Position numbers and translations under genes: made by a program. A model generated the notes under the pieces. That model made no database searches. It worked only from the letters and a program-made list of their open reading frames with translations, and had not been told where the DNA came from. From Kiritimatiellia bacterium (lineage in GTDB: Bacteria > Verrucomicrobiota > Kiritimatiellia > JAAZAB01): DNA of 46,462 nt. The first letter of the stretch is position 1. Each line of letters begins with the position of its first letter. The DNA lies in NCBI GenBank assembly GCA_028715905.1, contig JAQUQV010000013.1, forward strand, positions 1 to 46,462. Reading direction: 5' to 3'. This document shows positions 39,480-41,490 of this stretch, one piece after another.

Positions 39480-40256
39480 TTACCACTTCCGGCGCACGGG
39501 AATATTTTCCGCGGCCAGCGCTTCCTTGATCTGGCGGATGGTGTATTTGCCGGAATGGATCATGCTGGCGATAATGGCCGCTTCGGCGCAGCCCTCGGTG
39601 AAAATTTTTGCCAGATGTTCGGGTTTGCCCGCGCCGCCGGAAGCCACCACCGGCACGGGAACACTCCGTGCAATCAGCCTGGTAAGGTTAATCTCATAAC
39701 CCTCCTGCGTGCCGTCGGCGTCAACCGAATTGACCACGATTTCTCCCGCGCCCAGATCAACGGCCTTTTTTGCCCAGGAGAGCGCGTCCAGGCCGGTTCT
39801 TTCCCGGAAACCGCGGATCGTGATTTCATATCCGCATGCGCATTTTTCTTTTGCCACCCGCACCGGGTCCATGCCCAGGACGATGCATTGCGATCCGAAA
39901 GCCCGGGCCCCCTCCCTGATGATAAGCGGATTTTTCACCGCCAGCGAGTTGATGGATATTTTTTCGGCGCCGGCCAGCAGGACGCGTTCCATGTCGGGCA
40001 GGGCTGAAATGCCGCCGCCGACCGCGAAGGGAATGTGCACGGCGCGCGCCACTTCCCGCACCATTTCCAGGTCAATCGGACGGTTTTCGGCCGAGGCGGT
40101 GATGTCGTAAACAACGATCTCGTCGCATCCGTCCGCGCTGTAGGCGGCGGCCATTTCCACGGGGTCGCCCACGTCAACATTGCCCTGGAAGCGGACGCCC
40201 TTCGTCACTTTCTTGTCCCTGATATCAAGGCAGGGAATTATTCTTTTTGTCAGCAT
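39480..40256 (-). CDS. hisF: imidazole glycerol phosphate synthase, cyclase subunit
   Basis: The 258-residue (beta-alpha)8 barrel closes the imidazole ring using ammonia from HisH. The start TKRIIPCLDIRDKKVTKGVRF carries the catalytic Asp11, the second Asp lies in IVLGMDPVRV, and the phosphate loops are VVASGGAGKPEH and IIASMIHSGKY. Only seven bases separate its ATG from a repeat arm, and no Shine-Dalgarno is seen there, so the insertion of the four-helix-bundle cassette may have altered its translation. Confidence 0.95.
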   Translation of the reverse strand: MLTKRIIPCLDIRDKKVTKGVRFQGNVDVGDPVEMAAAYSADGCDEIVVYDITASAENRPIDLEMVREVARAVHIPFAVGGGISALPDMERVLLAGAEKISINSLAVKNPLIIREGARAFGSQCIVLGMDPVRVAKEKCACGYEITIRGFRERTGLDALSWAKKAVDLGAGEIVVNSVDADGTQEGYEINLTRLIARSVPVPVVASGGAGKPEHLAKIFTEGCAEAAIIASMIHSGKYTIRQIKEALAAENIPVRRKW

Positions 40257-40263
40257 CGCTATA

Positions 40264-40723
40264 TTTTGGATTTTGGATTGCCGATTTTGGATTACAGACT
40301 ATGAATATCAATTCAATCGTTTACGCAAAGTCTTGATTGATGCCACGATAATGGCAGTAATTTCATTGCATTCGGTCATAATGGCGGTAAGTTTATCTGC
40401 ACCGCATTTTCCGCTGTCATTAAGAATTTCCATCCAATACAAGGATTCATCAGCTTCTTCCTCGGCCGTCGAAAGCTTGGATATCATATCGGCCGTTGAC
40501 TTCGCGCGGCATGCCGCGCGATAGTTGGCGCCGACAGAGCATGCCGACCGTAGCAACTGTTTGCTAATGATAAGGCCGGATGTTGTTTTCGGCAATTGAT
40601 CAACGAACGTAATGATCTTCAATGCAAATGATTTGGTTCGGTCTTTAAATTCCTGTTCGTTCATGACTCTATTTTTAAGAATGATTTTTCAATCCAAAAT
40701 CCAAATTCTAAAATCCAAAATCT
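40264..40723. mobile_element. inverted-repeat cassette carrying a four-helix-bundle gene
   Basis: Left arm 40264-40293 is built of TTTTGGATT units (three copies with a CCGA break). The right arm 40690-40723 is its inverse, built of AATCCAAAA units, and overlaps the hisH stop. Between them lies only the four-helix-bundle gene. The arms and single gene separate hisH from hisF, which are usually adjacent. No transposase is present, so mobilisation in trans or by recombination between dispersed repeats is inferred. Confidence 0.55.
40308..40664 (-). CDS. four-helix bundle protein (S23/IVP-like)
   Basis: The 118-residue all-helical protein belongs to the 23S rRNA intervening-sequence protein family: KDRTKSFALKIITFVDQLPK, then SKQLLRSACSVGANYRAACRAKS and a third helix KLSTAEEEADESLYWMEIL. 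This fold is shared with the Avd accessory protein of diversity-generating retroelements, but no reverse transcriptase or template repeat is near. Such genes occur both inside 23S rRNA and as free units; the role of the free ones is unknown. It is on the his strand, flanked by inverted repeats. Confidence 0.9.
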   Translation of the reverse strand: MNEQEFKDRTKSFALKIITFVDQLPKTTSGLIISKQLLRSACSVGANYRAACRAKSTADMISKLSTAEEEADESLYWMEILNDSGKCGADKLTAIMTECNEITAIIVASIKTLRKRLN

Positions 40724-41339
40724 AAGGGCTCCATCTGCTGAAATTTTCCAGCAGTTTCAGTCCGATCCTCCCCGATTTTTCCGGATGAAACTGGGTGGCT
40801 ACCAGGTTGTTTCTGCCCACGATGGAAGCGAAGGTTATTCCGGCGTAATCGGTTGCGCCGATAATTTCCGCCTTATTCCGCGGCTCGGGGTAATAACTGT
40901 GGACGAAATAAAATTCGCTCTGGTCTTCAATTCCTTCCAGGACCGGATGTTTTTTAATGATTGTGACGGAATTCCAGCCGATTTGCGGCACCTTGTCGGC
41001 GCGGTCGGCCGGCATAAAACGCCGGACCTTTCCGGAAAGCAGGGCGAGACCTTCGGTTCCGCCGTCTTCTTCCGATGAATCAAAAATTATCTGGGTGCCC
41101 AGGCAGATTCCGAGGAAGGGCGTGCCGCGCGCGGCGATTTCTTTCAACACGTTTTCCAGCCGCAGGGCCATGATACTGCGCCGCGCCGCGCCGGCCGAGC
41201 CGACGCCCGGGAAAACGACGCGGCCGGCGGCCAGGATTTTTTCGGGTTGGTCTGTAATTTCCGCTTTCACGCCCAGATACGCGAAGGCAAGCTGGACGCT
41301 TGTCAGATTTCCGGCTTTATAATCAATAATGGCAATCAT
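40722..41339 (-). CDS. hisH: imidazole glycerol phosphate synthase, glutaminase subunit
   Basis: The 205-residue class I glutamine amidotransferase supplies ammonia to HisF. The nucleophile lies in FLGICLGTQIIF, the oxyanion strand in VVFPGVGSAG, and the His-Glu pair in ATQFHPEKSGR. The length is normal. It is downstream of purQ across a 196-base repeat-bearing gap and upstream of hisF with the inserted cassette between. Confidence 0.95.
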   Translation of the reverse strand: MIAIIDYKAGNLTSVQLAFAYLGVKAEITDQPEKILAAGRVVFPGVGSAGAARRSIMALRLENVLKEIAARGTPFLGICLGTQIIFDSSEEDGGTEGLALLSGKVRRFMPADRADKVPQIGWNSVTIIKKHPVLEGIEDQSEFYFVHSYYPEPRNKAEIIGATDYAGITFASIVGRNNLVATQFHPEKSGRIGLKLLENFSRWSP

Positions 41340-41366: not shown

Positions 41367-41490
41367 TCATAAAAAAATGTTCACCGCTCGCTTCGCTAGG
41401 CGCTGAGAACGCAGAGATAGGAAAGATTTCTTTTTTTTAAAATTTGATCTTACCTCTGCGACCTCTGCGTCTCTGTGGTAAAAATATTCT
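41367..41490. repeat. dispersed intergenic repeat between purQ and hisH
   Basis: The stretch contains GCGCTGAGAACGCAGAGATAGG near 41400 and CTCTGCGACCTCTGCGTCTCTG near 41455, imperfect inverted arms around an AT-rich centre (TTTCTTTTTTTTAAAATTTG). Phrases such as CTCTGCGTCTCTGTGGT recur, from memory, between genes in many PVC and environmental genomes. The gap of 196 bases holds no gene. Confidence 0.5.

Follow-up and report, generated by a model that had tools for sequence, protein, structure and literature searches.

An S23/IVP four-helix-bundle gene framed by inverted five-heptamer arrays: a probable compact mobile element at bacterial operon junctions

Heptanucleotide repeats of cyanobacteria have been described as short tandemly repeated repetitive (STRR) sequences, and bacterial heptanucleotide repeats in general, familiar as they are, have to our knowledge no agreed origin. 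REPIN/RAYT systems, which are IS200/IS605-derived, pair a single gene with short inverted units that are also dispersed without the gene, occupy intergenic positions, and leave no target duplication. In the intervening sequences (IVS) of 23S rRNA genes, an S23p/IVP open reading frame sits between inverted repeats in an insert of approximately 430–470 nt; these sequences, whose discovery was more than 25 years old by 2016, have been called selfish, and their mobility has been proposed but unexplained (PMC4990558). The IVP/S23 proteins themselves have remained a puzzling family ever since that discovery. Carriage by a mobile element has been considered for the TAACTGA heptamer repeats of Beggiatoaceae, with no carrier named (PMC4679880). 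The homology of the protein Avd to the PF05635 family has likewise been noted (PMC10053308), and the TRAP protein provides an instance of a ring of identical subunits that engages transcripts carrying short repeats two nucleotides apart (PMC3913778).

The locus described here lies in a contig of a Kiritimatiellia bacterium (JAQUQV010000013.1, assembly GCA_028715905.1), the whole 46,462-nt stretch of which is referred to below as the window. A gene of 118 codons for an S23/IVP four-helix-bundle protein (40308..40664, minus strand) separates hisH (40722..41339, minus strand), its upstream neighbour, from hisF (39480..40256, minus strand), its downstream neighbour. A first-pass annotation of the window had placed a gene of the 23S-intervening-sequence family at this position, and both coordinates and assignment were confirmed by profile searches with the 118-aa protein, which scored above the curated cut-offs of PF05635 (64.6 bits, E=1e-17, cut-off 33.8) and TIGR02436 (91.6 bits, E=3e-26, cut-off 24). 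The AlphaFold2 model consists of four helices (pLDDT 95.7); its best solved structural match is 2RLD (TM 0.83-0.87 by query length), and its matches also include the Avd structures 4DWL and 8UB7.

Flanking this gene are two arms built from the heptamer GATTTNN, five units in each. The hisF-side arm (40262..40296, plus strand) reads TATTTTG GATTTTG GATTGCC GATTTTG GATTaca, with five ATT cores at 7-nt spacing, and the hisH-side arm (40691..40722, minus strand), inverted relative to the first, reads GATTTTG GATTTTA GAATTTG GATTTTG GATT (the counting script gave six for the hisF-side arm, a chance GACT being next in register; the true count is five). The annotation was thus right that inverted arms enclose the gene, the two forming an imperfect inverted repeat of 82% over 34 nt, but its 9-mer unit, TTTTGGATT, gives way to the 7-mer. 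A scan of the 46-kb window at up to two mismatches returned these two arms as its only GATTTNN arrays, and shuffling of the local 1.5 kb produced any array in 19 of 2000 shuffles (~1%). The apparent loss of the hisF ribosome-binding site, also remarked upon in that annotation, was borne out, as the arm comes within 6 nt of the hisF ATG and the interval holds no Shine-Dalgarno-like sequence; at the other end, the TAG stop of hisH has one base in common with the arm. The element measures ~0.46 kb, the IVP gene is the only gene between the arms, and a transposase gene is absent from it. Upstream of hisH, the window additionally contains a gene-less hairpin (41398-41472) of 9-nt ACCTCTGCG repeats, the arms of which are 76% complementary.

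The presence of the gene at this site in all relatives, which the annotation had named as evidence against a mobile unit, is not what was found: most relatives with adjacent hisH and hisF have an empty junction, the two genes overlapping or abutting in eleven relatives where hisH is adjacent (gap of -10 to +1 nt). The genome G002, from the same family, carries an intact IVP at the hisH/hisF junction, and G003 retains there the beginning of an array and a degraded stretch of the IVP start as a pseudogene remnant, so that the insert is shared by one genus and decayed in another. Empty junctions, insert, and remnant together therefore indicate an insertion that, as read from sequence, is a derived state, albeit an old one in this family. 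The annotation had further advised searching the same genome (G000) for other four-helix-bundle genes, and this revealed a second arm-bearing IVP, located between leuC and leuD, with heptamer arms; it belongs to a different lineage of the IVP protein tree than the hisH/hisF IVP, and its insertion appears to be shared by G005, judged by the preceding leuC-like sequence. The hisH/hisF and leuC/leuD copies are accordingly interpreted as two separate acquisitions with the same layout. The leuC-side arm (L005 1186-1480, G000 C32) contains at least three tandem copies of a heptamer-containing 51-nt unit, followed by a run of N. Farther afield, a search centred on the Nostoc family yielded 30 loci at the tldD/pmbA junction, ranging from intact and internally deleted elements through traces of pseudogenes and relics of the right arm to near-empty gaps of 13-24 nt. 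Among the loci compared there was no near-identical strain whose clean empty site would mark an insertion as very recent, and the Pseudanabaena DISARM drmD/methyltransferase junction from which IVP is absent is, at ~67% identity, too diverged to fix the insertion ends.

Recurrence of this arrangement was assessed by scanning GTDB genomes with an alignment of the arm-bearing clade, the best matches to which comprised 80 related loci in 15 phyla. With arms defined as a forward GATTTNN array no more than 200 nt upstream together with a reverse one downstream, inverted arms were present at 57 of the 80 IVP loci, compared with 2 of 694 other open reading frames in the same loci. A sequence-free test, wherein the best-repeating lag from 4 to 13 is determined in each 160-nt flank, gave lag 7 as the best in 151/156 IVP flanks versus 249/1404 control flanks, and most loci lacking GATTT arms have other heptamers instead (e.g., GTGCGGA and GATTGCG). 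Terminal inverted repeats reached a median of 81% over 32 nt (49 loci) and were perfect in two; the arms of some IVP copies (L095, L300, and L305) are weak or missing. Within the window's own class, more distant IVP clades bear inverted arms of other 7- or 8-mers, with inverted similarity exceeding direct similarity in 21 loci versus 5 (p=5e-5) and lags of 7 or 8 nt in 68% as opposed to 24% in controls. Fifteen loci on plasmids of Cyanobacteriota, Chloroflexota, Bacteroidota, Spirochaetota, and Bacillota, which form an independent set, displayed lag 7 in all 30 flanks. Two loci from the related genomes G014 and G041 (L309 and L311) belong to another IVP clade and have ACCTGAA-type heptamer arms, both apparently following the same upstream gene.

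Gene and arms also appear to be inherited together. Heptamer types are far more alike in the two arms of one locus than in arms of different loci (cosine 0.55 versus 0.11; p<2e-4), and loci whose proteins are more distant tend to differ more in arm type (Mantel r=0.31, p=5e-4, kinship uncorrected). The IVP protein tree intermixes phyla, with 29 label changes where the minimum is 14 and shuffled labels average 49.8; the data fit a unit that would move horizontally with its ends, label changes alone being no proof of transfer. In this regard, the minimal mobile unit proposed in the first-pass annotation has gained support from the second IVP locus, the empty sites, and the recurrence in 15 phyla, from which we infer the movement itself. 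The locus is thus probably best regarded as a compact mobile element in which IVP would be the sole gene and the ends would be five-heptamer arrays, each likely bound by a pentamer.

The genomic surroundings of the element bear on what the arms may do. Its neighbours vary widely (his, leu, tldD/pmbA, DISARM, and type I restriction genes), and in 31 of the 37 loci with clear neighbours both flanking genes are co-directional with it. The median distance from the upstream stop to the beginning of the arm is 2 nt, and that from the end of the arm to the next start is 3 nt; 73% of the arms begin within 3 nt of the stop, where placement at random within ordinary gaps would give 18%, a pattern attributable either to target choice or to survival of harmless insertions. 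Plasmid IVP elements (L264, L265, L266, L267, and L327) often split defence operons, namely DISARM drmD/methyltransferase, DUF1156/Swt1, and type I hsdS/hsdR. In five Acidobacteriota (L111, L112, L127, L159, and L167) the 3' end of a selenocysteine tRNA gene directly precedes the element, and these copies probably represent a shared old insertion. The proximity to stop and start codons, the co-directional neighbours, the tracking of the protein by arm type, and the location of gene-less arrays just upstream of start codons would all suit a gene with its operator, that is, IVP as a host regulator that controls the operon through binding to the arrays, whether in mRNA or in DNA, the pair spreading jointly by ordinary horizontal transfer or recombination in the absence of transposition. 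A regulator of this kind is nevertheless difficult to reconcile with neighbour genes that differ so widely, with copies that decay freely at one site (tldD/pmbA), and with gene-less hairpins that are multicopy, and we regard this explanation as rather unlikely.

When GATT-like cores spaced 7 nt apart were counted in the array closest to the gene, five units were found in 71 of 114 arms (four in 11 and six in 15), and arrays far from any IVP gene also peak at five (24/39); shuffled flanks gave no arrays by unit count, and a cruder, sequence-free length estimate had a median of 4.6 units. The G of the outermost unit is often missing, and no constraint is seen on the bases that follow the last GATT. 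Among solved relatives, 2RLD has five chains and 2GSC is described as five four-helix bundles; a pentameric state for the present IVP is predicted from the relatives 2RLD, 2GSC, and 4DWL only. One pentamer would then probably bind one five-heptamer array, and the match between five units and five subunits may be coincidence.

Pairing between the arms is a further conceivable role for these sequences. In the predicted RNA fold both arms are paired and the hisH stop comes to lie beside the hisF start, with a z of -1.76 that is only modestly better than shuffled sequence; pairing of the variable bases between arms in matched register was not significant (p=0.19), and no conserved hairpin was established by this comparison. 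Because the arm register is not conserved beyond composition, putative protein-binding arrays are favoured over a strict hairpin. The same results weigh on an RNA-borne route resembling that of the 23S IVS, in which the arms would pair in the transcript, the hairpin would loop out the open reading frame and perhaps be cut by RNase III, and the RNA would be spread by a reverse transcriptase in trans, with IVP in the role of Avd. In its favour, the IVP fold is that of Avd and DGR ribonucleoprotein subunits, the arms pair in the predicted RNA with the hisH stop beside the hisF start, and the IVS of Coxiella is laid out in the same way, with an S23p open reading frame between inverted repeats and cleavage by RNase III (PMC4990558). 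Given the modest fold score and the unconserved pairing register, together with the absence of a reverse transcriptase match, we consider such a route unlikely: RVT_1 (PF00078) is absent from the window's genome (G000, 96% complete) and from the array-bearing genomes G014, G024, and G047, and dependence on a reverse transcriptase was rejected on this ground.

Arms without the gene, which the first-pass annotation had treated as potential evidence against a mobile unit if common, are indeed common. The window's genome has ~18 array sites, of which four are the arms of the two arm-bearing IVP genes and the others (~14, IVP-free) are single arms or hairpins, compared with 0-1 hits for a control pattern. 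These sites nevertheless have the same ~five-unit structure and several form hairpins, as would be expected of non-autonomous derivatives. The arrays of this genome have the attributes of STRR-like sequences, being tandem degenerate heptamers that are intergenic and dispersed. Across 58 related genomes, possession of five or more arrays tends to go with the arm-bearing IVP clade (Fisher p=9e-4, and p=0.007 outside the window's family, kinship uncorrected in both). In Nostoc linckia, nearly identical hairpins of ~80 nt that lack the gene occur at seven different sites; these (L249-L253, L259, and L260) are often enclosed by outer GGGGACT/TGCCCCA heptamer arrays, which gives the impression of one type of hairpin inserted into another. 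In the window's genome, four copies of one repeated gene family (L011, L012, L013, and L028, on G000 C51, C103, C127, and C126) have a ~five-unit array in their apparent N-terminal coding region, where an arm seems to have been turned into coding sequence, and a Y1_Tnp match lies ~1.1 kb from the C51 copy.

Searches for the agent of movement concerned both the element and its surroundings. No excess of direct repeats over permutation, such as a target-site duplication would leave, was detected in 59 loci, no conserved target sequence was found outside the arms, and no recombinase or enzyme of known type was found in the element. Carriage by phage was rejected, only 5 related loci occurring in 2.9 million viral contigs, as was dependence on a Y1/RAYT enzyme, since Y1_Tnp counts are uncorrelated with array counts and the element has no Y1 gene. 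An ordinary transposase acting in trans (e.g., Y1/RAYT) on a non-autonomous element, with IVP as a passenger or accessory, would agree with the resemblance of the gene-less inverted hairpins to MITEs and REPINs in behaviour and with the absence of target duplication, which fits Y1 enzymes; the failure of Y1_Tnp counts to track arrays (G009, a genome only 70% complete, has 36 arrays and no Y1_Tnp) and the lack of a conserved target beside the arms make it highly improbable. Lastly, chance or a hotspot, with arrays as slippage products on which IVP genes happened to land, can be granted almost no credence, for although heptamer arrays also exist without the gene, the inverted orientation, the five units, the matched arm types, the array-free empty sites, and the control comparison (57/80 versus 2/694) all contradict it.

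For the compact mobile element favoured here, a sequence of events may be envisaged. Gene and arms would move together as one unit, and the IVP pentamer would engage an arm multivalently, each subunit taking one heptamer, with the conserved heptamer core contacted and the two free bases serving as a spacer, following the logic of the TRAP ring. Two pentamer-arm complexes could then pair the ends of the element, and insertion would proceed without target duplication via host functions or a factor supplied in trans. Copies would persist mostly in the narrow stop-to-start gaps of operons, where they would do little harm, and arms that stayed in place after the gene was gone, or were copied on their own, would give rise to dispersed heptamer repeats.

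If IVP and heptamer repeats are indeed one element, both puzzles gain a mechanism, that of a pentamer reading five spaced repeats, and a widespread mobile element will have been annotated until now as an ordinary small gene beside meaningless repeats. Furthermore, because the element repeatedly occupies operon junctions and the usual ribosome-binding region, it may affect the expression of core biosynthetic and defence operons. A broader proposition can be put forward more tentatively, and we would not yet wager on it: the whole S23/IVP family might constitute the gene of a pan-bacterial class of minimal elements that are defined by two inverted five-unit heptamer arrays, with one pentamer reading each array at a heptamer per subunit, that move with no recombinase of their own, whose abandoned arms are the source of the heptanucleotide repeats dispersed in cyanobacterial and other genomes, and whose rRNA-landed copies are the 23S IVS.

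Comparison with known systems places the element close to several of them. The 23S IVS of Leptospira and Coxiella are alike in protein family, single open reading frame, inverted repeats, and size, but the present element lies between protein-coding genes rather than in 23S rRNA, ends in five-heptamer arrays, and has gene-less arms dispersed in the genome. A gene flanked by inverted units that are also dispersed without it is common to REPIN/RAYT systems and the element; unlike the former, the latter has a four-helix-bundle gene with no HUH/Y1 nuclease and units that are tandem heptamers. Insertion sequences and MITEs share the terminal inverted repeats, whereas their transposase gene and target-site duplication are absent here. 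STRR and TAACTGA repeats are, like the arrays of the element, intergenic heptamer arrays often found near start codons, but those of the element are degenerate, tied to a gene, arranged in inverted pairs, and usually composed of five units; STRRs may derive from IVP-type elements. The DGR accessory protein Avd, which is pentameric, has the same fold as IVP (4DWL, 8UB7), yet no reverse transcriptase, template repeat, or variable repeat adjoins the IVP gene. TRAP offers an analogy only, as an unrelated protein with 11 subunits and GAG/UAG repeats in place of 5 subunits and GATTTNN. Among open-access papers, no description of IVP/S23 with heptamer repeats as a mobile element was found. The element lacks a defining feature of every known mobile-element class with which it was compared; a stricter reader could call it an IVS variant.
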